Made by a program: the position numbers and the translations under genes. From Blastocatellia bacterium (GTDB taxonomy: Bacteria; Acidobacteriota; Blastocatellia; Pyrinomonadales; Pyrinomonadaceae), in contig JACCVY010000012.1 of the NCBI GenBank assembly GCA_013697915.1, positions 1-37,643 of the forward strand: a DNA stretch of 37,643 nucleotides. Reading direction: 5' to 3'. Below, one piece after another: positions 4,073 to 19,651 of the stretch; position 1 is the first letter of the stretch, and each line of letters starts with the position of its first letter. The notes below the pieces were generated by a model. The model was not told where the DNA came from and made no database searches. It saw only the letters and a list, made by a program, of their open reading frames with translations.

Positions 4073-7000
4073 TTATTGTCTTGTAGAATCCGATCCGCGT
4101 TTATCCGCGGCCAATGTTCTTTCGCTCTTCACTCTGGAGCGCAGCCATTGGCGGCCAGCGCGACAAATGCTTAAGAAGCTGCACATGCGGCAATGCGGTG
4201 CAGGCCGCACTGGAAACTCAACTGGCTCGTGCGAAGCAATAATATCCATCATTGCCGCATCAATTGCACGCGCGCAAGCGTCGCGAGAAAGCAATTCGGG
4301 CGGCAGGTAAAACTCAATATTCGGATCCAGAAAATGAAGCGTTACTTTAATGGCGGCGCCTTTTGCCGCAAGCGACGGTAGCAGATCGCTAACCGCCAGC
4401 GCGTAAGCCTGCATTTGCAATTGATAATCCGAGGCGGCAAGTCGCACCTGATCTTCAACAGAAACCGGATCGACGATTACCTCGGCCTCAACCGGCCCTG
4501 GCTCGAAGTCAAAAGCAAACTGATCAAGCCGATACTGGGACCGCGGGCGTTGCGGGGTCCCCAGCGGAGCAGCCCCGCTGGGGTGCTGTGCCGCCCGCAC
4601 TTCCTTCGCTACATTCATTGTTGAGTCCGCCTTAACGCTTGGCGGGCGGGACGCCCGCGGTCCCAGTGAAGAGTTTGAGGCTATCGTTCGCGGTCGCATT
4701 CGATTTGTCTTGAAATCAATAATCTCAACATCGAAACCTTTACCATCAGCCGCGGGGATGACCAGCAATTTATCAATCGCCCCGGTCAGGATTCCCAGCT
4801 GTCGTCGTAAGCGAAACGGCACTTCGCTCCAAAGTCCAACTTTGCCGCTCGGAAAACGCGTTGAATCTTCTGACTGAGAGCCATTCGCCGCAGGCAACAC
4901 GCCCACAGCTTCGCGCGCCTGCTCGACGCGCTCAAAGACACCACTCGATAAATAGTTTTCCGCCAGCGGTAACAACTCGGCGATAGCTACCTCGGTATCG
5001 ATCTCCATCAGGCGATCGCCAAGCTCCGCCTGCCGCAAGCGCAAGACGTCTGCAAAGCTCTGTTCCAGCAGTGCCCGTGTGTCGTCTTTTTTCTCGTACG
5101 TTTCGCAAAAGCGGTGAATGACCGCGCCCTTCAGCGTCGCCGTCAAGTTCGTCGGCGGCTCAGGCGCTTCGGCATCGTTCCAAACGGCCATTTGATCCGC
5201 CGACGGCAAATGCAGCACCCGATCGAAATAATATTGTCGCGGGCAACGCTGATAGTTGATTAGCTGCGTCACGCTAAAGCGATGAACTGCTGCGTCGAGC
5301 TCCGGTTCGATCTTGCGCAGCAGGGGAAACTCTTCGGCAAGAGAAACGACTTCTTTGTTAAGAGGAACGGGTAAAGGCTCGGCCGTGAGCTTTGCTTGTT
5401 GCGGCCGATCAATCAGGTTGGGGGTTATCTCGATTTGCACTTCCGGCGCGAGATCAACTACGCCACTCTGCGGTTGCGCCTGCAATTCAAGCGACTGCCA
5501 AATCCATTTCAGCCAGGTGTCGCCTTTGCCGTTCAGACTTTCAAAGTCTTTAGTTGTACCGGAAAAAATCAAGCGGTCTTCGGCGCGCGTTGCCGCTACA
5601 TACAGCAGGCGCATGCTCTCAAATTGTTCGCGCAACGCCTGACGGTCCTCGAAAGTTTTGAAGGTACAACCGGCCACTAGCTTGCCGCGCCCATCAGGCA
5701 CTTTCAAAGTCAGACCACGATGTCGATCCAGCAGGAACCAGTTGTCGGGAACTCTTGAATAACGTTGCAGCTCGGGGATGATGACGACGGGGAACTCCAA
5801 ACCCTTGGCCTGATGAATTGTCATCAAGCGCACGGCGTTGGTTGCTTCATCGATCTGTCCCTCACTCTCGCGGCTGCCGATAGCTTCAAACTCTTCAACG
5901 TAGCGGACAAAGTCGCGAATCAGATGCGCACCCGATCTTTCAAACCGTTCGGCCAGCGTAAACAGCCGCTGCACGTTTGCCAGCCGTTGCGCGCCATCAA
6001 AGTTCGCTGCGATGACGGTCATGAACTCAGATTGCTCGACGGCATATCGCAACAAGCTGCCGATGCCGTAGTTGTGGCGCCGCGCGATCAAGCTTTTGAT
6101 CAAATTGGCGGAGCGTTCCAGCAGTTCATGCTCATCGTCACTAATAAAAGCAACATCTGCGTGTCGCTTAAGAGCGTGGAAAAGATTTCGCGTTTGGCTG
6201 AAGTGCAGCATTGGATCTGTAGTCTCAAGTTCATCGAGCCACGGCGCGCAACGTAAAGCCAGCAACGCGTTGTCTGAAATACCGCACAACGGCGAACGCA
6301 ACACCGCCGCCAACGCCAGCTCGTCAGTCTTGTTATCCAGAAACCGGAGCAACTGGATTAGATCGGTTATTTCTTCGCGCTCATAAAAACCGCGACCGAG
6401 CACAGTTTGATAAGGAATGTTGGCGCGGCGAAAAACGGATTCGTAGACCCCTACGTTTGTCATCGCGCGAAACAACAGCGCGATGTCGCTGTATTTCGGT
6501 GCGTCCTCACCTTCGGTTAGTTCAATGATTCGTCGTGCCAGTTGTTCCGCATCCAGCTCGCGGGAACTTTGGTCCAACTTCGGATCATCATCGTCACCCG
6601 AGCTTTCAGTGGTAATCAGCAAATCAACCAGCGGCCCACTATCGCGCAACTCGCGCTTTGCTTCGCTGAACTCATGTTCAACGTAGCCAAGCTGCAGGCG
6701 TTCGTCGGCCGTCACTTCTTCCTTCGGCTGGAACAACCGATGGAAAAGGTGATTGAAGAAATTTATCAGCGGCGGCTGGCTGCGAAAGTTAAGCTGCAAC
6801 GATTTTTCTTGGCCGCCAGCTGCGATCAGGGTTGCGGTCATCTCACGAAACACATCGACGTCAGCCCCGCGAAAGCCATAGATCGATTGCTTGCGATCGC
6901 CCACAATGAATAGGTTCGCGCTGTCACGTTGCGCCGGTCGCAAAGCGAGCCGCTCGAGCAACTGGCGTTGTACGTTGTTCGTATCCTGGAATTCATCGAC

Positions 7001-8092
7001 CAGGAAAAACTTGTAGCGCTCCGAAGTGCGGGCGATGACTTCGGGTCGAGTTAACAATTCGAGAGTGCGCAATTCGAGATCGTCAAAATCGAGTGCGGAC
7101 AACTGCTGTTTTTCGTGATTGAGGCGCTGATCGATCCTCTCCAAAATATCTATCAGCTCCAACGCATATCGTTTGGCGAACATGTCCAAACACGTTTGCG
7201 GCACGCGACCCAGCAAATCCTTTTCCCAGATCAAGGCGTCCACGGTTTGGACATATTCCTTGAAGTCGCCGCGCGCCTGCGGTCGCAACTTGCGAAACTC
7301 CTCTACAGCTCTGCAATAGTCGGCAAGCTTCTCGTGTTGTGGAACGTTACCAATCAACTCTCGCAAACCCGGCCATTTGGAGCTCACTTCAGCATGATTA
7401 ACTCGTGTCGCCGGCGTGGTGCGGCGCAGGCGCAGAAAGTCATCCATTGCTCGCGACAATTCAGCGAGCGCCTGATCGTAATGCCGATCGGATGCATGAT
7501 GCTGTTCAGTCTTTAACCTTAAATCCGCAAACGACAAACCCTGGCCGCGCACTTCGCGATAAAGGTGGCCCAGGCCATCAGCCAATCTTCCGCGCCCAAC
7601 GCCAAGTGTCAGGCGCGAAATCTCAACATGGTTAGCCGAAAGAAATTCTGTCAGTACTTGCTCGACCGTAACTTCCAGCAACATTTGCGCGCGGTGTTCG
7701 TCAAGTAAGGTGAACTGCGGATCCACACGCGCCTCAACCGGAAACTCGCGCAACAGGCGCGCGCAAAAACCGTGAATGGTTGTTATCACCGCCCCGTCGA
7801 GCGTGCGCTTGTAATTCAACCAGCGCTTTCGTTCATCGCCTGTAGCAGTTTGCAGAATGTGGTTGAGGCGTGACCGCAGACGCTCGCGCATTTCGTTGGC
7901 AGCGCGATTGGTAAAAGTAATGGAGACAATTTGATCGATGGAAAGCTTTTGCGAACGCAGAATGTGCAGGTAACGCTCAACCAGGACCGATGTCTTGCCC
8001 GAGCCCGGGCCCGCGGTGACCGAAATGTGCCGGCCCAGCTCATAGGCGGCCGCAGCTTGTTCAGGTTGTAACTCGCGCTTCTGCGTCGACAC
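4073..8092 (-). CDS. addA: AddA-type UvrD/RecB-family helicase-nuclease
   Basis: This 1339-residue subunit of an AddAB-type enzyme unwinds and degrades DNA from double-strand ends to start recombination. Superfamily 1 helicase motifs are intact: Walker A AGPGSGKT (27-34), FLVDEFQDTN (near 365), GDRKQSIYGFRGAD, TIHQAKGLEFPVVI and LLYVAATRAEDRL. The C-terminal RecB-like nuclease has GAIDKL, EIIDFKT and YQLQMQAY. A Cys near 947 and CRMCSFLSIC near 1300 look like a [4Fe-4S] ligand set. Two oddities stand out. A palindromic element (4534-4667) encodes residues about 1142-1186 between two nuclease motifs, and a repeat fragment encodes the last residues. The start is GTG; addB lies 191 bp upstream in the same direction. 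Confidence 0.9.
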   Translation of the reverse strand: MSTQKRELQPEQAAAAYELGRHISVTAGPGSGKTSVLVERYLHILRSQKLSIDQIVSITFTNRAANEMRERLRSRLNHILQTATGDERKRWLNYKRTLDGAVITTIHGFCARLLREFPVEARVDPQFTLLDEHRAQMLLEVTVEQVLTEFLSANHVEISRLTLGVGRGRLADGLGHLYREVRGQGLSFADLRLKTEQHHASDRHYDQALAELSRAMDDFLRLRRTTPATRVNHAEVSSKWPGLRELIGNVPQHEKLADYCRAVEEFRKLRPQARGDFKEYVQTVDALIWEKDLLGRVPQTCLDMFAKRYALELIDILERIDQRLNHEKQQLSALDFDDLELRTLELLTRPEVIARTSERYKFFLVDEFQDTNNVQRQLLERLALRPAQRDSANLFIVGDRKQSIYGFRGADVDVFREMTATLIAAGGQEKSLQLNFRSQPPLINFFNHLFHRLFQPKEEVTADERLQLGYVEHEFSEAKRELRDSGPLVDLLITTESSGDDDDPKLDQSSRELDAEQLARRIIELTEGEDAPKYSDIALLFRAMTNVGVYESVFRRANIPYQTVLGRGFYEREEITDLIQLLRFLDNKTDELALAAVLRSPLCGISDNALLALRCAPWLDELETTDPMLHFSQTRNLFHALKRHADVAFISDDEHELLERSANLIKSLIARRHNYGIGSLLRYAVEQSEFMTVIAANFDGAQRLANVQRLFTLAERFERSGAHLIRDFVRYVEEFEAIGSRESEGQIDEATNAVRLMTIHQAKGLEFPVVIIPELQRYSRVPDNWFLLDRHRGLTLKVPDGRGKLVAGCTFKTFEDRQALREQFESMRLLYVAATRAEDRLIFSGTTKDFESLNGKGDTWLKWIWQSLELQAQPQSGVVDLAPEVQIEITPNLIDRPQQAKLTAEPLPVPLNKEVVSLAEEFPLLRKIEPELDAAVHRFSVTQLINYQRCPRQYYFDRVLHLPSADQMAVWNDAEAPEPPTNLTATLKGAVIHRFCETYEKKDDTRALLEQSFADVLRLRQAELGDRLMEIDTEVAIAELLPLAENYLSSGVFERVEQAREAVGVLPAANGSQSEDSTRFPSGKVGLWSEVPFRLRRQLGILTGAIDKLLVIPAADGKGFDVEIIDFKTNRMRPRTIASNSSLGPRASRPPSVKADSTMNVAKEVRAAQHPSGAAPLGTPQRPRSQYRLDQFAFDFEPGPVEAEVIVDPVSVEDQVRLAASDYQLQMQAYALAVSDLLPSLAAKGAAIKVTLHFLDPNIEFYLPPELLSRDACARAIDAAMMDIIASHEPVEFPVRPAPHCRMCSFLSICRAGRQWLRSRVKSERTLAADKRGSDSTRQ
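4093..4115. repeat. Partial CGCGGAT-family repeat inside the addA 3' end
   Basis: These 23 bp match the outer end of the right arm of the 3131-3263 element at 21 positions. They are translated in addA as part of the tail TLAADKRGS, just before the stop at 4073-4075. Confidence 0.7.
4534..4667. repeat. Palindromic element inserted within the addA coding sequence
   Basis: Perfect 17-bp inverted repeats (4534-4550 and 4651-4667, ACTGGGACCGCGGGCGT and its complement) bound 134 bp. Inside is a second palindrome, CCCCAGCGG...CCGCTGGGG, near 4557-4582. The reading frame of addA passes through without a stop and reads as a Pro/Arg/Ala-rich linker (GPRASRP, GAAPLGTPQRPRSQ) unlike the surrounding nuclease domain. 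Confidence 0.8.
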
Positions 8093-8111
8093 TGCGGCTT
8101 GCCGCCTTCCC

Positions 8112-8234
8112 TGCGGTAAGGCTCAGCCTTACCGGCAATTCGCAATTGAAATGAGAGGCTGCGCCTCTGCTGAATCGAGGCGCAGCCTCGAAAGAATCAA
8201 AAAGTTCGCGTCGGTAAGGCTAAGCCTTACCGCA
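8112..8234. repeat. Nested palindromic element between addB and addA
   Basis: Outer arms each contain GGTAAGGCT(C/T)AGCCTTACC (8115-8133 and 8213-8231). An inner perfect 13-bp pair is GAGGCTGCGCCTC (8155-8167) and GAGGCGCAGCCTC (8177-8189). The element fills most of the 191-bp gap between two genes expected to be co-transcribed. Confidence 0.75.
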
Positions 8235-8283
8235 CGGAAGGGGGCAGAGCCGCGTTAGTAGCAGTGCTCTACATTCTTTAACT

Positions 8284-11200
8284 TCAAAATGTCCTGCTGT
8301 TCTTCCTGTCGATCCGATAGCGATCGTAGCGGCACACCGCCGCGAAATCACAAAACCGGCACGTCTTTTTCTTTTCCGAAGGATTGACGTAGAAATGGCC
8401 GGCGCGCATGTGATCGAGAAAGTCCCAAATCTTTGCGACAGCGTTTGCGCGAATCTGTTGCCAGTCGTCTTCTGACATCACGCTGTTGGTGCGGCCGTTG
8501 AGTCCTGAATAATTCAATGCCGCGGCGCGGTGCAGCCCGCGATTGCGCCGCTCGTTGCCGCCGCGAATAACGTAGTAGCCACCACCGGCAATCCGGTGAT
8601 CGGTAAGCAGTAACTTTTCCAGTGCTTCAAGATAAATCGGCAACTGCAGACTGCGTCCCGACTTTATGTCTTCAAGGCTGGCGCCAGACGAAAGTTTGTA
8701 ATCGTAGGCAATCAATGTCTTATCGCTGGCCACGTCGACGCGATCGATTTGCCCGCTAATCTTTAATGTTTCCGTCCCGGTGGCAGTTGTTCTGGTTAGC
8801 TCCAGTGGCTCCGGCCTGGAATTGGGATCGCGGGCCGTTGACCTTGGCCCACCAAACGCAAGTTCAAAATATTCCGGCACAACGCCGGCGGCCGCAGAAT
8901 GTTCCTGAATCTCCAGCTCGTACAACAACACCTGATCCAATAGAATTTTGCGTATCTCGCGATCGATCTTCCAGATTTGCTTGTTGAGCGGCGGCACTAC
9001 GCGCTCATGCTCGTCGAAGACTTCATCGGCGATCCCGGCAAGTTCGTTACGCAGTCCCTCGCAATCAACTTCCGTCAGACGCTCGCCACGATGGCGCTCA
9101 AAAAAACGTCGCAGAATATCGTGCAACAGTTTGCCCGCATCGATTGCCTGAAGATCCAATGCTGCTTCACCCCGCGGCTCGAGCTTCAACACGCGTTGCC
9201 CAAAAAAGCGATAGGCACAGTTGCCATAGACGCCGAGACCGCTGGCGCTTAGCACGTAGTCGGCGCCAAACCGCTGTTGCAACAAAGCAATCAGGTGCGG
9301 ATCGGTGATCTCGCCATCGTATGGACCAAATGATGCGCGCACGCGTTCGTGCTCAATATTAATGCGGCGCAGCGCGGATTTGGTTAGTAGACTTTCGCCG
9401 CGGGCCAGGTCCGACAATTTACTAATACGCGCCTGCGGTAACAGCGGCTGTTTCTCGCCGCGATGCAGGTGACGTTCCTGCTGGCGAACCAGTGCAATAC
9501 CCAGCTCGCTGCTGGTTGAAACTGCCGGCAAATTTTTGCCTTCATAGTCGCGGCGAACGGTTTCCGTGGTGATCGCCAACGGCGCCACTGCGCGCCGCAA
9601 TTCATCTATGTAATAAGAAGCAACAGTTTCCGCGTCGTCTTCCAACAACAGGGGCCGAGTAAGATATAGCCGCTCTGTAGCCCGGCAGGCAGCCTGATAA
9701 AAATAGTGTTCCTCTTTCAGCAGCGTGGCCGGTGAAATGTCTTCCAACGTAATTCCATCGCGTTTGAGACGTTCGCGTTCTTCGTGCGGATAGATCCAAT
9801 CGCGTGACGCGCGCAGCGGAAAGCCGCCCTCGATTAAACCCGCCACAAAGATAGCGCGGAACCGAAGACCGCGGACATCGGTGGCCTCGAGTACCGCCAA
9901 CCCGCCGCGATCCGCGACGCCAAAAACCTGTGACTGTGAACCCAAACAGCGACGCGCTTCTTCGACGAAGGTCGACATCTTTGTTGTCGAGCTCTCACTG
10001 GCGGCGGCAATTTCGATGCTCTTAATCGCCGCAGCAAAAGCGCGACGCAGTGCTTCGAGACTGTTGAAATTGAGCATCGCCTGCGGCAGCTCTTCCTCAC
10101 CGACCAAATTATTTACTCGATGGCCGATTTGCTCGCCGAAACTGAACTGCTCGAACAGGCTCATTAGCGCGCGCCGCAATTCCGCCGGGGCGCCAGCGCG
10201 CGGCAATATTTGCACGCGCGCCGCAAACGCCTGAATTATGAGCGCCGTCCAGGCGAGTGCAGCCGGGTGCACATCGTGCGACGGACGTCTTTTCTTTTCG
10301 ACGTCTTTCTCTTCAATTTTTGCAGTCTCTGCGTTTTCAATTTGATCAGCTTCATCCGCTTCGCGCGCAGATTCAGCGTTGTCAATGTTCAATAGTTCGC
10401 GCGTGGCCGCGGCCGTCGGCAGCTCCTGAATCAATTTGCGCGCCCGCGTCAGCCAATCGCTTACGCGCAAGTCGCTGCCGACATAGGCGAAGGCATTCTC
10501 GAGCGCGTCAGCGTCCCAGATGCCGATTCGGTAACGATTCTTGAGTCGCTCGATTTGTTTCCAGTCGGGCTGTGAACCGTTCTCTGCAAACAAGGCAGAG
10601 CGCTCGGCGTCAAAGGTTGCCGCCAGCCTTTCAACCTCTTTATCGTTCAGGCGAAAGTATTCCGACTTGATCAAGTCGGCGAGGTCGGACGTTCTCGGCG
10701 CAGCATCTTCATCGCGAGAGAGTTCCTCCACAATTGCCAGCAACTTAAGCGCAGCGCGATTCGCCGGAATGTCGCCTGCCTCAAGGCGCAACTCAAGATT
10801 GCATGGCAGCGACTCTTCGCGCATGACGCGTGCAATGGTTTCGGCGTATGCCGCACGCTGGCGTACGACCAGAGCAATGTCAGACAGCTTGAATCCATCA
10901 ACCAAAATCAGTTGTTTGATCTGCTTGGCGATAGTGCGAATTTCGGTGTCGCGATCGCCGCACTCCAGGTATCGGATTTCTCTTGCCGGTTCGCCCTCGG
11001 CGGTTTCTTCGTGGTCCGCAGGGGCAGGCATTTCTTTAGCAGGATTGAAAAGATTTTCGCGCAGCCCAGCGAGCGCGCCGTCCACAGCGATGGAACTTTC
11101 GCCGCTGTGTTTTATTTCAAAGGGTGCGATAGCTTTTAGTTGGTCGATGGTTTGTTGAAAAGGAAGAAAGATCTCCGGATTTCGCTGATCGTTATTCAGA

Positions 11201-12009
11201 TTAACGATCGCCTCGGAAACCTGCGGAATCAGACGTCTCAGGATTTCGCCCTGCACTGGAGTAAAGTCAAAAAAACCGTCCAGCACCAACAGCTTGACGT
11301 TGGGCAGCCAGTCATTCCCTACCGATCGTCCATTAATCTCACCGTCAAGAATTGAAACAGCGCGCAACTGATCGGCGTCCGCGTCGGTGAGGTGATGCCG
11401 ATCGAGCAACTCGCAATAGAGCGAATAGATCAGCGCCACGTCGCTATCGAAATCTACCTGACGCGGAATCAATTGTGAACCAATTCGACGCGCCGGCGCT
11501 TGTTCTTCATCCGCGCCAAGATCAGTAACCCTTCGTGCTACGATCTCTGCGAACTCTTGCGGCCTTTTGCCGGCGCGCTGAATTTCACCAATCAGCGTGG
11601 CAAGGGAATTCACGCAGCCTTCGCGTGCCGCCAGGCGATCGAGCGCTTTCAGTTTGCCTTCATCTGCCAGCCGTCTCAGGATTTGGGAAACCAGACTTCG
11701 CTTCAGTGGAAACTCTTCGCGATCAATCGGCACTCGCGTTGCCAGGCGCCCGCCGGTTTGTTCATCGACGGCAGTTGAGACAATTTTTCTGACGAAGCCA
11801 CGAAAAAGGTAGACGGGGAGTTCGCCCCATAGCCCGGCATTTTGCGCGCCGTCGAGAATTTGTTCAGTGACCAGTTCGAGCAGCGGATGAGAAGCAGCGA
11901 GGTAAAGGAATGTTTCAGACTTGCCTTCGGCGACAAGCTCAGCACACCGCTGGATGAGACGCGAGCGATTGTTGCCGAGGAGAGGACCTAACCAAATTTC
12001 TTTTGACAA
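8284..12009 (-). CDS. addB: AddB-type helicase-nuclease partner subunit
   Basis: This 1241-residue protein is the likely partner of AddA and lies directly upstream of it. The N-terminus lacks a canonical Walker A (GPLLGNNRSRL stands where GxGSGKT would be), so the motor is probably inactive and serves in DNA handling, as in RecC. Helicase-like remnants include VYLFRGFVRKIV, VLDGFFDFTPVQ and IFVAGLIEGGFP. The C-terminal RecB-family nuclease looks intact: GQIDRVD, IAYDYKL and LQLPIYLEAL. A Cys near 931 (YGNCAYRFFGQ) and CRFCDFAAVC near 1217 fit a [4Fe-4S] cluster, a hallmark of AddB. It begins 43 bp after the rmuC stop, suggesting an rmuC-addB-addA operon. Confidence 0.85.
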   Translation of the reverse strand: MSKEIWLGPLLGNNRSRLIQRCAELVAEGKSETFLYLAASHPLLELVTEQILDGAQNAGLWGELPVYLFRGFVRKIVSTAVDEQTGGRLATRVPIDREEFPLKRSLVSQILRRLADEGKLKALDRLAAREGCVNSLATLIGEIQRAGKRPQEFAEIVARRVTDLGADEEQAPARRIGSQLIPRQVDFDSDVALIYSLYCELLDRHHLTDADADQLRAVSILDGEINGRSVGNDWLPNVKLLVLDGFFDFTPVQGEILRRLIPQVSEAIVNLNNDQRNPEIFLPFQQTIDQLKAIAPFEIKHSGESSIAVDGALAGLRENLFNPAKEMPAPADHEETAEGEPAREIRYLECGDRDTEIRTIAKQIKQLILVDGFKLSDIALVVRQRAAYAETIARVMREESLPCNLELRLEAGDIPANRAALKLLAIVEELSRDEDAAPRTSDLADLIKSEYFRLNDKEVERLAATFDAERSALFAENGSQPDWKQIERLKNRYRIGIWDADALENAFAYVGSDLRVSDWLTRARKLIQELPTAAATRELLNIDNAESAREADEADQIENAETAKIEEKDVEKKRRPSHDVHPAALAWTALIIQAFAARVQILPRAGAPAELRRALMSLFEQFSFGEQIGHRVNNLVGEEELPQAMLNFNSLEALRRAFAAAIKSIEIAAASESSTTKMSTFVEEARRCLGSQSQVFGVADRGGLAVLEATDVRGLRFRAIFVAGLIEGGFPLRASRDWIYPHEERERLKRDGITLEDISPATLLKEEHYFYQAACRATERLYLTRPLLLEDDAETVASYYIDELRRAVAPLAITTETVRRDYEGKNLPAVSTSSELGIALVRQQERHLHRGEKQPLLPQARISKLSDLARGESLLTKSALRRINIEHERVRASFGPYDGEITDPHLIALLQQRFGADYVLSASGLGVYGNCAYRFFGQRVLKLEPRGEAALDLQAIDAGKLLHDILRRFFERHRGERLTEVDCEGLRNELAGIADEVFDEHERVVPPLNKQIWKIDREIRKILLDQVLLYELEIQEHSAAAGVVPEYFELAFGGPRSTARDPNSRPEPLELTRTTATGTETLKISGQIDRVDVASDKTLIAYDYKLSSGASLEDIKSGRSLQLPIYLEALEKLLLTDHRIAGGGYYVIRGGNERRNRGLHRAAALNYSGLNGRTNSVMSEDDWQQIRANAVAKIWDFLDHMRAGHFYVNPSEKKKTCRFCDFAAVCRYDRYRIDRKNSRTF

Positions 12010-12052
12010 AACATCGACTCCGAACGTGAGACTCCCGGCAAGAACTGGTGTT

Positions 12053-13456
12053 TCACTCTTTTCCTGTCGCTGCCGTCGCAGCCAGATTATTGGGCGCCTC
12101 TGTCTCAGTTAAGCGCGCGGCTAAGAGTAACGGCGCTTCTATGAGTGCGGTTGCTTCTTCAATTTCGTCGCCCCCGGGTGGCATTTCCTGAACGTCCTTA
12201 AGTCTCCGTTCAATCGTACGAGACTTCCTCGCAGCGTTGTCTATAGTGTTACTTGCTTCATCCAATTTCTTCTTTGTTTTTTCGAGGAGGTCGCCGAATT
12301 TTCCAAATTCCGTTTTGACAGCGCCAAGCAGCTCCCACACTTCACTCGAACGCTTTGCGATTGCCAACGTTCTAAATCCGACCTGTAGGCAATTCAACAA
12401 AGTTGCGAGAGTGGTCGGACCAGTAACCATCACTCGATAGTCCCGGTGAAGGACCTCGCACATTCCCGGACGACTAATGATCTCGGCGAACAATCCTTCT
12501 GTCGGAACATACATAATTCCAAAATCAGTTGTATTCGGGGGATCAAGGTACTTATCGCGGATATTCTTCGCCATCTCTTTGACTCTGCGCTCAAGTTGTT
12601 TGGAAGACTCCTCAATCAATTGGGGATCACATTTGTCGCGAGCGTCAATCAGTCGCTCGTAGTCTTCTTTCGGAAATTTTGCATCGATGGGAAGCAGGAC
12701 TTCCTGCTTGCCACTGCCATCCTGACCCGGCAGTTTTAGCGCGAATTCAACCCTTTCAGTGCTTCCTTTTCTGGTGGCTATATTTTTTTCGTACTGGTTC
12801 GGGGCCATGACTTGTTCGAGCATATTCTCAAGCTGCCACTCCGCCAGAGTTCCTCGAGTCTTGACGTTACTCAGAATGCGCTTCAGATCTCCAACTCCGG
12901 ATGCGAGAGACTGCATTTCTCCGAGGCCCTTATGTACCTGTTCCAAACGCTGCACCACTATGTTGAACGATTCTCCTAACCTCTTTTCGAGAGTACTCTG
13001 AAGTTTTTCATCGACCACCGTTCGCATTTGATCCAGCTTTCGGCTGTTGTCTTCCTGCAACGCTGAAAGCCTTCCTTCTATCGTCGTTCGCATTGTCTCG
13101 AGGCGTCTTTCCGTGGCCTCCGTCAAAACTCCGATTTGTCGGGCAAACGAATCAAGTTGCTGCTTCTGACCCTCCCCAATTTGTGCGATTCGCGTCGAGT
13201 TCGTTTCGCCGGCGGTACGAATGGCCTGCCCTAATTCCTGTCTTGAGTCTTTTGCGACCGAGTTCATCTCCTCTCGGTTACGCGACAGCTCGTCCTTGAT
13301 TGCGGTCTCAATTCTTTGCTGCCCGCTATCAACAACTGTGAGTTTTTCTTTGAGTTCCGCAGAAGAATCTTTGCGGCGTGTTGCCAGCAAAACGATCAAT
13401 AAAACCAGGTTTGCTGCGCCGATCAGGATAAGGATAATGATTAGATTCTCATTCAT
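12053..13456 (-). CDS. rmuC: DNA recombination protein RmuC
   Basis: This 467-residue protein has one N-terminal membrane helix (about residues 5-26, IIILILIGAANLVLLIVLLA), a long coiled coil (about 35-185) and the RmuC domain (about 190-400). Family landmarks are RGTLAEWQLENMLE, LPIDAKFPKEDYERL, DFGIMYVPTEGLFAEI and VTGPTTLATLLNCLQVGFRTLAIAKRS. RmuC proteins are putative nucleases that limit inversions and recombination at short inverted repeats, which is notable in a genome this rich in such repeats. It appears to be the first gene of an rmuC-addB-addA operon. No strong Shine-Dalgarno is visible before the ATG at 13456. Confidence 0.93.
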   Translation of the reverse strand: MNENLIIILILIGAANLVLLIVLLATRRKDSSAELKEKLTVVDSGQQRIETAIKDELSRNREEMNSVAKDSRQELGQAIRTAGETNSTRIAQIGEGQKQQLDSFARQIGVLTEATERRLETMRTTIEGRLSALQEDNSRKLDQMRTVVDEKLQSTLEKRLGESFNIVVQRLEQVHKGLGEMQSLASGVGDLKRILSNVKTRGTLAEWQLENMLEQVMAPNQYEKNIATRKGSTERVEFALKLPGQDGSGKQEVLLPIDAKFPKEDYERLIDARDKCDPQLIEESSKQLERRVKEMAKNIRDKYLDPPNTTDFGIMYVPTEGLFAEIISRPGMCEVLHRDYRVMVTGPTTLATLLNCLQVGFRTLAIAKRSSEVWELLGAVKTEFGKFGDLLEKTKKKLDEASNTIDNAARKSRTIERRLKDVQEMPPGGDEIEEATALIEAPLLLAARLTETEAPNNLAATAATGKE

Positions 13457-13524
13457 AGTTCGTAAGTCTAGCAGATGGTGTTTCGGAAATGAAACAGCGT
13501 CGCGTTAACGGGCTATAGCGTACC

Positions 13525-13667
13525 AAAGAGCGGGGGCAAGCCCGCCTTCCCAACCTGAGAGACTTCCGTTGTCACACATTGATTTACTTTGAAAGCCATT
13601 CAACCAGAAATGAACGCTCGATTGTAATCAGCTTATGGTTGGGAAGGTGGGCTTGCCCCCGCTCTTT
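13525..13667. repeat. MITE-like element with 31-bp inverted repeats (GCGGGGGCAAGCC family)
   Basis: Arms 13525-13555 and 13637-13667 are inverted copies with one mismatch in 31. The element lies between rmuC and the exonuclease gene and ends 10 bp from the exonuclease stop. A shorter relative is at 19521-19599. Apart from this element the 13457-13676 gap shows nothing. Confidence 0.85.
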
Positions 13668-13676
13668 CTGACCGGC

Positions 13677-14705
13677 TCATCGCCCAAAGCAACCAACCAT
13701 CCGCTCATAAACTTTCCGCGTCACGCGCACGTCGTTGAGGTTGTACTCGCGAATCTCTGCAAGTTTTCCCGACTGGTAAAGATCAAAAACCTTGCTACCC
13801 TCGGCTGTGGCTGTCTTGCTTGATTCGATTCCCAGCGCCCAGGCTATGTCGTCGAGACTGACAAAACGCTTCGCGCCCAGCCACCAGTGATGCATCGTGT
13901 CAAATACACCCCGCACCCGAAACTCAGAAAGATCCACCAGCGGCTTGGCCGAGATGCAATGGACCAGGCAGCGCTGAAAAATAAACGGCAAGTCGAAACC
14001 GATCAGGTTATGACCGACCAGTTCATCCGTCTCGCAATCAAAATCTTTCAGCAAATCGAGAAAGGCCAGCAGCGATTTTTTCTCATCCTGCTCAAGGCCG
14101 GCTTCGTCGATGCCAAACACGTGTTCGCTGTGAGGCAACTCCACCCCCAGGTCAATTCCGGCGATCGCTCCCGCGTGCACGGCAATGGAAAGTATGCGGC
14201 CCGAAGCGGCGCTTAGCGACCCCAGTTGATAACAGCGCTCTTCTTCGATCGCGATGTCTTCCAGATATCGTTGCTGTTGTTCCAACCGCATGTTTCCGAG
14301 TTTCCAAAGCCGCTCGAGTTGTGGCCCAACCCGCTCGCGAAAGTCGGCCAGCGTCAACGTCTCAATGTCCATCGTGTAAGCCCGTGGCAGCACCGGATCC
14401 GCATTCTGATGTTCGCGGTATTGCTCGAGGGTGATGGGGCGATACTCGCTGACTACAAACTGCGGGCGCTCTTGATAGGTTTCGAGCGTGCCGGCGATGC
14501 CAAACAAACCGGGCTTAAGCTCTTTCCAGATGTCGAGTGTCTCGCCCCAAATTTTCAACGGCAGCGAGCCGGTCGCGTTGCGCGCGGTGGCGTCGCAAAA
14601 GCGTTTGCCTTGTTGCGTTCGTTTCTCGCGGACTGAGGTGACGACGACCATCAGCCACAACTCTTCGCCCTGCGGCATTTCAGGAATAGGAATGTTGCCT
14701 CTCAT
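13677..14705 (-). CDS. OB-fold plus DnaQ/PolB-type 3'-5' exonuclease
   Basis: The 342-residue protein joins an N-terminal OB-fold nucleic-acid-binding region (about 10-95; ATARNATGSLPLKIWGE then GIAGTLETYQERPQFVV) to a DEDD exonuclease. Exo I is Asp113-Ile-Glu115 (YTMDIETL), Exo II is GHNLIGFD (231-238), and Exo III is Y321NLND325. The OB plus nuclease order recalls YhaM-like single-strand exonucleases, but the catalytic part here is DnaQ-like, not HD. It probably trims single-stranded DNA or RNA ends in the cytoplasm. It is divergent from the MutH-like gene. No strong ribosome site is seen before ATG 14705. The OB call rests on sequence style and is less sure than the exonuclease call. Confidence 0.8.
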   Translation of the reverse strand: MRGNIPIPEMPQGEELWLMVVVTSVREKRTQQGKRFCDATARNATGSLPLKIWGETLDIWKELKPGLFGIAGTLETYQERPQFVVSEYRPITLEQYREHQNADPVLPRAYTMDIETLTLADFRERVGPQLERLWKLGNMRLEQQQRYLEDIAIEEERCYQLGSLSAASGRILSIAVHAGAIAGIDLGVELPHSEHVFGIDEAGLEQDEKKSLLAFLDLLKDFDCETDELVGHNLIGFDLPFIFQRCLVHCISAKPLVDLSEFRVRGVFDTMHHWWLGAKRFVSLDDIAWALGIESSKTATAEGSKVFDLYQSGKLAEIREYNLNDVRVTRKVYERMVGCFGR

Positions 14706-14782
14706 GATTCTGACAAGACTAATTCGGTATTTTGTGCAAGTTCTCTTGCAGCGAACGCAAACTAACGGTTGGCTTTACGTCA

Positions 14783-14811
14783 TTAACGATTGCGAAAGTC
14801 TATTCTATACT
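14783..14811 (+). promoter_or_regulatory. Candidate sigma-70 promoter for the MutH-like gene
   Basis: TTAACG (14783-14788) and TATACT (14806-14811) are spaced 17 nt apart in the 160-bp divergent region, 54 bp before the start codon at 14866. Confidence 0.4.
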
Positions 14812-14837
14812 GTCGCGCGCCGCTAAAGGGTCACTCA

Positions 14838-14858
14838 CCAAACTCAATTTGGTTTTTT
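14838..14858 (+). terminator. Weak terminator-like hairpin in the leader of the MutH-like gene
   Basis: A 5-bp stem CCAAA/TTTGG with a 5-nt loop is followed by six T. It lies between the candidate promoter and the ATG at 14866, so it would act as a leader attenuator if real. The stem is short and AT-rich. Confidence 0.2.
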
Positions 14859-14865
14859 CTTTCCG

Positions 14866-15540
14866 ATGCTGGTAATTCAAACACAAACTTTAACGCGAAC
14901 TGAGGCGCTGCGACGCATCAGGTTGCTTACCGGCAAAGACTTGCGGCCGCTGGCCGATGAGTATGGAATTACAGTATGGAAAAACGGTCACAAGAATAAA
15001 GGCTGGGCGGGGCAGGTGATTGAGCACTATCTCGGGCTGCCGCAAAACTCTTTGCAGGCGCCGGACTTTGGCACCTGGGAGTTGAAAGTTGTGCCGGTAA
15101 TTCCCGGCTTGGAAGGAACGGTGCTCGTCAAAGAATCGATGGCGATAACGATGATCGAGCCGGCCGAAGTCGTCGCCAGCAAATTCAGCGACAGTCATCT
15201 TTACGACAAGCTGCGCAGCATGATTGTAGTGGCGCGAATTTTTCAGGACGTGCAGGAGACGTCGGCTTATTTACATTCAGCCGCCGAGTTTGATCTCGAC
15301 AATCCAGCAATTCGCAGGCAGGTGGAAGCGGACTATGAAACCATTCGCGAAATTATCAGGACGAAGGGTGTGGACGCTTTAACTGGAGACACAGGAAAAT
15401 ATGTGCAGGCGCGCACCAAAGGTCGCGGCCACGGCAGCACCTCGCGAGCGTTTTATGTGCGGCCGGCGTTTGTTGCGCACATTTTGAATTTGCAGAAGCT
15501 GGCATGGATGCCTCAAGTACTGGGTGAGGAAAGCGGGTGA
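14866..15540 (+). CDS. MutH/Sau3AI-family DNA endonuclease
   Basis: The 224-residue protein matches the MutH fold in order: NKGWAGQVIEHYLG, then PDFGTWELKVVPV, then SHLYDKLRSMIVV, then GKYVQARTKGRGHG and FYVRPAFVAHIL. The likely active site is Glu53, Asp67, Glu72 and Lys74, parallel to E. coli MutH Glu56, Asp70, Glu77 and Lys79, although the Asp-to-Glu spacing is 5 rather than 7. MutH nicks unmethylated GATC strands and Sau3AI cuts GATC. No methyltransferase, MutS or MutL is in the window. It is divergent from the exonuclease gene and near rmuC-addBA, so a repair or defence role is plausible. Start chosen at ATG 14866; no strong Shine-Dalgarno. Confidence 0.78.
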   Translation: MLVIQTQTLTRTEALRRIRLLTGKDLRPLADEYGITVWKNGHKNKGWAGQVIEHYLGLPQNSLQAPDFGTWELKVVPVIPGLEGTVLVKESMAITMIEPAEVVASKFSDSHLYDKLRSMIVVARIFQDVQETSAYLHSAAEFDLDNPAIRRQVEADYETIREIIRTKGVDALTGDTGKYVQARTKGRGHGSTSRAFYVRPAFVAHILNLQKLAWMPQVLGEESG

Positions 15541-15554
15541 ACTCAAAAAACACT

Positions 15555-15706
15555 ATCCGCAGATTACGCAGAGTTCACAGATTCAGTCAGAAAAACAAAC
15601 GGTCGAAAGCCTAATTCCCCTTGCACGCGACTCTTCGAATACTCAGCGAATTGGTGTGATGAGTTCTCACTCCTTTTCTTACTGTTATCTGCGGAATCTG
15701 CGGATT
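15555..15706. repeat. Inverted-repeat element (CGCAGATTA family), copy 1
   Basis: ATCCGCAGATTACGCAGA near 15555 is inverted in ATCTGCGGAATCTGCGGAT (15687-15705). The right end overlaps the stop codon of the DUF962 gene. No gene is seen in 15541-15704. Confidence 0.65.
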
Positions 15707-16046
15707 AATGTCTTGTGGTTTTTCCGGAACGCTCAACTTCCGCTTCCATCCGGCCAGTCAGCATCATCCAGATCATCTTGTAGTCGCCCATGAATGACCA
15801 CAGCGGATATTGAAAAGTAGCGGGTTTGTTTTTCTCGATGAAGAAGTGACCAATCCAGGCGGCGCCATAGCCGGGGATGAAAGCGAGCGGAAACAGCCAC
15901 CACTTGCCGATGAAGATGAAGTAGACAACCAGAGCGAGAGCTATCGAGGTACCGACGAGGTGAAGCAGACGAGTGCTTGGCTTGCTGTGTTCCGCCAAAT
16001 AGTGTGGCCAGAACTCGGTGAATGAATTGTATTCTCGTTCAGCCAT
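15705..16046 (-). CDS. DUF962/Mpo1-like membrane protein
   Basis: A 113-residue protein from ATG 16046. It has the family phrases NSFTEFWPHYLAEHSKPSTR, LLHLVGTS, GAAWIGHFFIEKNKPATF and YPLWSFMGDYKM. Two to three hydrophobic segments (about 27-65) mark it as an integral membrane protein. Yeast Mpo1 of this family is an Fe(II)-dependent dioxygenase for 2-hydroxy fatty acid alpha-oxidation, and the conserved His residues fit such metal binding; the bacterial substrate is not known. A TTG one codon upstream is a less likely start. Both ends abut copies of the CGCAGATTA repeat, and the final residues TTRH and the stop lie at or in the repeat edge. Confidence 0.85.
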   Translation of the reverse strand: MAEREYNSFTEFWPHYLAEHSKPSTRLLHLVGTSIALALVVYFIFIGKWWLFPLAFIPGYGAAWIGHFFIEKNKPATFQYPLWSFMGDYKMIWMMLTGRMEAEVERSGKTTRH

Positions 16047-16059
16047 CAAAACTGAAACC

Positions 16060-16167
16060 TTATCCGCAGATTACGCAGATTCCGCAGATTTGGAATGCAC
16101 CCACGACATTGGGGGGCGACTTGTCTGTTTCTTGTTCATCTGCGTAATCCGTGTAATCTGCGGATTA
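16060..16167. repeat. Inverted-repeat element (CGCAGATTA family), copy 2
   Basis: The left arm (16060-16089) has three 9-bp units CCGCAGATT/ACGCAGATT/CCGCAGATT. The right arm (16138-16167) is its imperfect inverse. It occupies most of the gap between the DUF962 and aldo/keto reductase genes. Confidence 0.75.
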
Positions 16168-16187
16168 GCTTGTTTTGTTTAATCAGA

Positions 16188-19480: not shown

Positions 19481-19520
19481 CCTGGTACTCGGCAGGCATA
19501 AGTCAAGATAGTGAACCTCA

Positions 19521-19599
19521 AGGTCGGGAAGGGTGGCTTGCCCCCGCTCTTTATTTGAATGCCATTCCACCGGCGGGGGTAAACCACCCTTCCCAACCT
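19521..19599. repeat. Short copy of the GCGGGGGCAAGCC-family inverted repeat
   Basis: Arms 19521-19548 and 19572-19599 are inverted with about four mismatches in 28. The outer flank CAACCTGAGAGACT is shared with the copy at 13525-13667, and both centres contain GCCATTC. No gene lies in 19481-19651. Confidence 0.8.
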
Positions 19600-19651
19600 G
19601 AGAGACTATTAAGGTTGAATAATTTCTGGCGACTTTGTGACTCACATTCTA

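Follow-up and report, generated by a model that had tools for sequence, protein, structure and literature searches.

AddAB enzymes unwind and cut DNA ends. In Firmicutes and other bacteria the AddAB (RexAB) enzyme consists of two large subunits, AddA combining helicase and nuclease motifs and AddB carrying a PD-(D/E)XK nuclease and four cysteines. RmuC (PF02646, COG1322) is a PD-(D/E)XK nuclease family that is widespread and whose role is poorly defined; it is characterized by a membrane-anchor-like N-terminus, a coiled region and an RmuC domain with a DAK motif. The PolB-exo2 family (PF10108) consists of predicted 3'-5' exonucleases with a DEDDy exonuclease domain. MutH and the Sau3AI-type type II restriction endonucleases both act at GATC.

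Genes for relatives of all of these proteins lie side by side in the window, a stretch of 37,643 nt from a Blastocatellia soil bacterium (assembly GCA_013697915.1, contig JACCVY010000012.1). The encoded proteins share the features listed above with the described systems and depart from each of them in particular respects. AddA and AddB score far below the NCBIfam equivalog cut-offs, and their genes are joined here by rmuC and by the gene for an exonuclease with a putative OB domain (referred to as EXO). The rmuC gene lies between exo and addB, and the copy in the window is of a distant type that stands in place of the usual one of the genus. EXO differs from PolB-exo2 proteins in its putative N-terminal OB domain and in its linkage to addAB. 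The fifth protein resembles MutH of Escherichia coli and H. influenzae in fold, in its D-E-K active site and in length, but is only 23–25% identical to it, has a D..ExK spacing that is two shorter, has no Dam partner that could be found in its genome and is accompanied by a MutL that keeps endonuclease-like motifs. With Sau3AI it shares the N-domain fold and a family of methyltransferase-linked relatives, but it contains one MutH-like domain instead of two and has no linked methyltransferase itself.

The explanation held to be probable, with moderate confidence, is that two separate things adjoin in this locus: a conserved break-end module, EXO-rmuC-addB-addA, and an optional orphan MutH-like nuclease.

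Genomes and searches

The window lies on contig C133 of genome G000, a draft of 4.5 Mb in 271 contigs that is 97% complete. Linkage of the MutH-like gene was surveyed in 16 genomes of the window's genus, and the co-occurrence of EXO and AddB was counted over 36 genomes of family f1. A scan of 84,980 genomes for relatives of the MutH-like enzyme returned 176, and 79 aligned rows were analysed. Nine carriers of the MutH-like gene outside G000 were checked for D12 methyltransferases. The PADLOC scan took in the block together with the genes closest to it on either side.

Identity of the encoded proteins

Pfam and NCBIfam domain searches confirm both the coordinates and the identities that the initial annotation had given to the five genes. 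AddA (4073–8092, − strand) matches PF00580 (E 1e-60) and PDDEXK_1 (E 2e-17) as well as PF13361 and PF12705; it retains the motifs LVDEFQD and QLNFRS in its UvrD-like helicase and the motif DFK (residue 1126) in its C-terminal RecB-type nuclease. AddB (8284–12009, − strand) matches PDDEXK_1 (E 1e-32) and ADDB_N (E 6e-8). Walker A is missing from its inactive helicase fold, the PD-(D/E)XK nuclease motif DYK is kept at residue 1103, and the presence of Cys931, Cys1217, Cys1220 and Cys1226 is consistent with a predicted AddB Fe–S site. Against the NCBIfam AddA and AddB equivalog models, which are built on narrow groups, the two proteins miss the cut-offs with 374 of 708 bits and 155 of 904 bits, respectively. 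The segment of AddA that follows DFK (residues ∼1136–1215) is of low complexity and of strongly variable length; G003 and G015 have little or none of it.

RmuC (12053–13456, − strand) is recognized by PF02646 (E 3e-72) and contains the PD-(D/E)XK-type motif PIDAK. EXO (13677–14705, − strand) matches PF10108 above the cut-off (E 3e-13), and its motifs DIET, GHN..xFD and YNLND, which are of the DEDDy type, are invariant or almost so in 16 sequences. The match of its N-terminal OB domain to PF01336 is borderline (18.8 bits versus a cut-off of 27), yet spans the full profile; a single-sequence fold prediction reached a pLDDT of only 37, so that the OB assignment rests on sequence. Of the original description of this protein as an OB plus DnaQ-type exonuclease, the exonuclease is upheld, its type being better given as PolB-exo2 (DEDDy), and the OB domain is a borderline candidate. 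Full-length EXO occurs in seven of 396 genomes drawn evenly from the phylum, and all seven belong to the class of the window.

The MutH-like gene (14866–15540, + strand) is divergent from that of EXO, as had been annotated, and its product matches PF02976 (E 3e-9). Its NCBIfam scores of 64.5 bits for MutH (cut-off 243) and 59.5 bits for Sau3AI (cut-off 300) lie below both cut-offs, and the protein is therefore related to MutH and Sau3AI and a member of neither model. An AlphaFold model (pLDDT 83) matches E. coli MutH over 201 residues (Z-score 20) and the N-domain of Sau3AI (Z-score 18), which bears out the earlier assignment to a MutH/Sau3AI-like nuclease. The enzyme thus has both the MutH fold, as modelled, and the D-E-K active site, with Glu53, Asp67, Glu72 and Lys74 as the corresponding residues.

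The MutH-like gene as an optional neighbour

The MutH-like gene is an optional neighbour of the module. It adjoins EXO in only four genomes (G000, G004, G014 and G100) and is divergent each time; all five genes adjoin in the first three, and the order MutH-EXO-RmuC-AddB is found in G100. Within the genus, the gene was detected in only three of the 16 genomes examined, and most members do not have it at this position. Outside the genus, G100 (genus g46) has it at the corresponding position, and further carriers occur in genus g3, where four genomes besides G017 have it, and in genus g5. In G017 (g3), where it adjoins an argininosuccinate lyase gene, it is separated from EXO by 87 kb; its neighbour in G019 (g5) is a YkuD-domain gene.

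Among the 79 relatives analysed, 68 have a β-class or D12 DNA methyltransferase gene no more than two genes away, and in 62 it is the immediate upstream neighbour, usually overlapping or no more than 30 nt away. No linked methyltransferase was found in the window or beside the orphan relatives. Position 67, the first catalytic position, is Asn in 67 of the 68 linked members and Asp in ten of the 11 others, the window enzyme being among the latter (Fisher p 8e-11, kinship not corrected for), and Glu53, Glu72 (Asp in three) and Lys74 are kept across the family alignment. In the tree, the Acidobacteriota group without a methyltransferase forms one clade (100/99 support) nested among linked members. 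From its sequences, this lineage appears to descend from restriction enzymes and to have lost its partner methylase. The coincidence of a missing linked methyltransferase with a different catalytic residue bears on the conversion between MutH-like repair nucleases and restriction enzymes. A trio from Verrucomicrobiota (L107, L123 and L149) also has Asp and also has no methyltransferase neighbour; the tree suggests an independent origin of the two Asp groups, which is not claimed here as an AU test (p 0.29) allows one clade. Given the GATC site common to MutH and Sau3AI, and a D12 methyltransferase partner in G020 that passes the NCBIfam Dam-family cut-off, the MutH-like enzyme is probably GATC-specific.

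The patchy presence of the gene, its different chromosomal places and its separation from any methyltransferase would fit a decaying or selfish restriction–modification remnant with no present role. Such a fate is somewhat unlikely, since no orphan has lost the reading frame or the catalytic residues over a long branch and all aligned members of the clade have Asp67. Under the two-part explanation favoured here, the gene would be an optional insertion beside EXO that encodes a MutH/Sau3AI-fold endonuclease of a restriction lineage minus its linked methyltransferase.

Conservation of the EXO-rmuC-addB-addA block

The co-directional block EXO-RmuC-AddB-AddA is conserved in the genus, and versions of it occur in four other genera. 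Nearly all genomes of the genus with a long enough contig share the gene order AKR, Mpo1-like, EXO, RmuC, AddB, AddA. One exception is G010, in which EXO is followed by genes for a peptidase, an O-antigen-ligase-like protein and an IS110 transposase; G008 has different genes upstream of EXO. Further afield, EXO-RmuC-AddB is found in G017, where AddA is not adjacent, in G043 (family f2), where AddA is adjacent, and in G100, where the stretch read ends before any AddA. In G039 (f5) EXO directly abuts AddB-AddA and RmuC is located elsewhere. Within family f1, 15 of the 36 genomes have both EXO and AddB and 19 have neither, with one exception each way, an agreement in 34 of 36 (Fisher p 4e-8, kinship not corrected for). 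Class-wide, many members have AddB without EXO.

In the window, the intergenic gaps are ∼220 nt between EXO and rmuC, including a palindrome, and 191 nt between addB and addA, and a single transcript is only putative. The palindromic element (13525–13667) has 31-nt arms, GAGCGGGGGCAAGCCCGCCTTCCCAACC, that are 97% complementary, and a similar element is present at the same place in G004; BLAST detects related copies near 19510–19607 and several in G004, making up a REP-like repeat family. In G043 (L044:696-7642) a second, divergent pair of AddB-like and AddA-like genes lies directly upstream of EXO, which is thereby flanked by helicase–nuclease pairs.

Replacement of rmuC

The rmuC swap in the window is a gene-for-gene exchange. 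Between G000 and its sister species G004, EXO is 96% and AddB 87% identical, whereas RmuC is about 24% identical. DNA homology between the two stops ∼8 nt before the rmuC start (upstream boundary, 13457–13464) and sets in again at the start of addB (12008; downstream boundary, 12010–12052). An assembly error is unlikely as the cause of junctions that coincide so exactly with the gene borders. The RmuCs that occupy this slot in the genus and its near kin share 56–92% mutual identity; that of the window is only 20–24% identical to those of its relatives and 46% identical to an unlinked RmuC of G039. A close relative of it was found only in G039 and G105 among 162 genomes of the class, and no second RmuC was found in G000. 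The type itself is ordinary, sharing about 49–55% identity with RmuCs of Bacteroidota, Rhizobiales and Clostridia. The slot of G006 is held by a further foreign rmuC (L037:7102-8511), the product of which is 24–29% identical to the slot RmuCs and has no match to that of the window.

By these comparisons, distant RmuCs have taken over the rmuC slot on at least two occasions within the genus, once in the genome of the window and once in G006, the position being kept as the occupant changes. The D(A/S)K motif is retained in all three RmuC types. Two swaps in which the occupant is always an RmuC suggest that the slot between exo and addB needs an RmuC, and a conserved place between exo and addBA that is refilled by distant RmuCs ties this poorly defined family to break-end processing. 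A phage origin of the foreign RmuCs was considered and rejected, as viral contigs yielded no relatives. In G006 two extra genes (L037:5937-7015) lie between EXO and the foreign rmuC; the second has a PIN domain, and they are possibly a toxin–antitoxin-like pair.

Function of the module

EXO and RmuC might lie beside addBA by descent only, doing no joint work with AddAB. Shared ancestry predicts adjacency within one genus, and there it extends equally to the AKR and Mpo1-like genes; RmuC has its separate location in G039, and a conserved neighbourhood falls short of proof of joint function. However, addB is still accompanied by EXO and RmuC in G017 and G043, where the AKR and Mpo1 genes are not part of the block, EXO and AddB are present or missing together in family f1, and the rmuC slot has been refilled twice by other RmuCs. 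Descent as the sole cause is therefore rated as unlikely, and the observed linkage supports the reading of EXO-rmuC-addB-addA as one end-processing module.

The role of this four-gene module is likely to be the processing of double-strand-break ends. AddAB would unwind and cut the ends, EXO would probably trim 3' ends, with its OB domain holding single strands, and RmuC would probably cut secondary structures in the exposed DNA. The module is real and apparently undescribed: a literature search conducted outside most subscription journals found no paper in which RmuC, AddAB and operon occur together.

Dam-family methyltransferases and MutL

In seven of the nine further genomes with the MutH-like gene (G004, G014, G100, G017, G148, G152 and G153) there are unlinked, orthologous D12 methyltransferases (L170–L176), which share 58–78% mutual identity and have mostly different surroundings; G151 has a further D12 match of similar score. 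Among solved structures, DpnM and Dam are the nearest, and the three copies that were scanned pass the TIGR00571 Dam-family cut-off. The PF01555 methyltransferases of the carriers that were compared show 21–50% identity, often over short stretches, to the linked partners of the family, which are 54–71% identical among themselves.

Together with the fold and active site shared with MutH, and with no avoidance of GATC as a sign of active restriction, these genes could mean that the MutH-like protein is a mismatch-repair nicking enzyme served by a solitary Dam-family methyltransferase, the two forming an independently assembled MutH/Dam-like pair. Such a pair is quite improbable. No D12 methyltransferase was found in the window's own genome (draft, 97% complete), the orthologous gene is lacking in G019 (78% complete) too, and the non-carrier control is weak evidence, there being no Dam-family match in the 1.97 of 4.87 Mb (40%) of G015 that it covers. 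In eight genomes the type of MutL does not differ between carriers and non-carriers of the MutH-like gene, and DQHVAHE and CPHGRP are kept. The DQHV..E motif of MutL is close to DQHA(X)2E(X)4E, the MutL endonuclease motif that MutH-dependent systems are described as lacking (PMC3848065), and its retention speaks against a role as MutH in mismatch repair. That a former restriction enzyme (Asn to Asp) and the solitary methyltransferase make up a newly assembled MutH/Dam-like system in Acidobacteriota, for strand-specific nicking or dispersed restriction, is decidedly improbable.

Possible joint action of all five genes

A single repair or anti-phage pathway made up of all five genes, with the MutH-like enzyme nicking, AddAB resecting and EXO trimming, as the initial annotation had proposed, is very improbable. 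All five do adjoin in three genomes and four of them in G100, and RmuC domains can be anti-phage nucleases, as in ShdA of Shield (PMC10270631). But the MutH-like gene does not occupy this position in the bulk of the genus and has other locations in G017 and G019, the partners to which its family is tied are methyltransferases, and PADLOC showed no defence genes in the block or its nearest flanking genes. The PADLOC matches of AddA, AddB and EXO reflect generic helicase or nuclease similarity; the others are an RmuC-domain match and a type II restriction endonuclease match for the MutH-like protein. What stands of the proposal is EXO, RmuC, AddB and AddA, the linkage of which is conserved, with the MutH-like gene as an accessory. 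The same division emerges from the comparison of gene neighbourhoods, in which the linkage of EXO to rmuC and addAB is kept and that of the MutH-like gene is patchy. A nicking step by the MutH-like enzyme finds no support, given both this patchy linkage to EXO and the relatives of the enzyme, which are members of restriction–modification pairs.

On the other side of the MutH-like gene, at 15548–16180, TCCGCAGATTACGCAGA-type repeats in direct and inverted orientation flank the Mpo1-like gene next to it.
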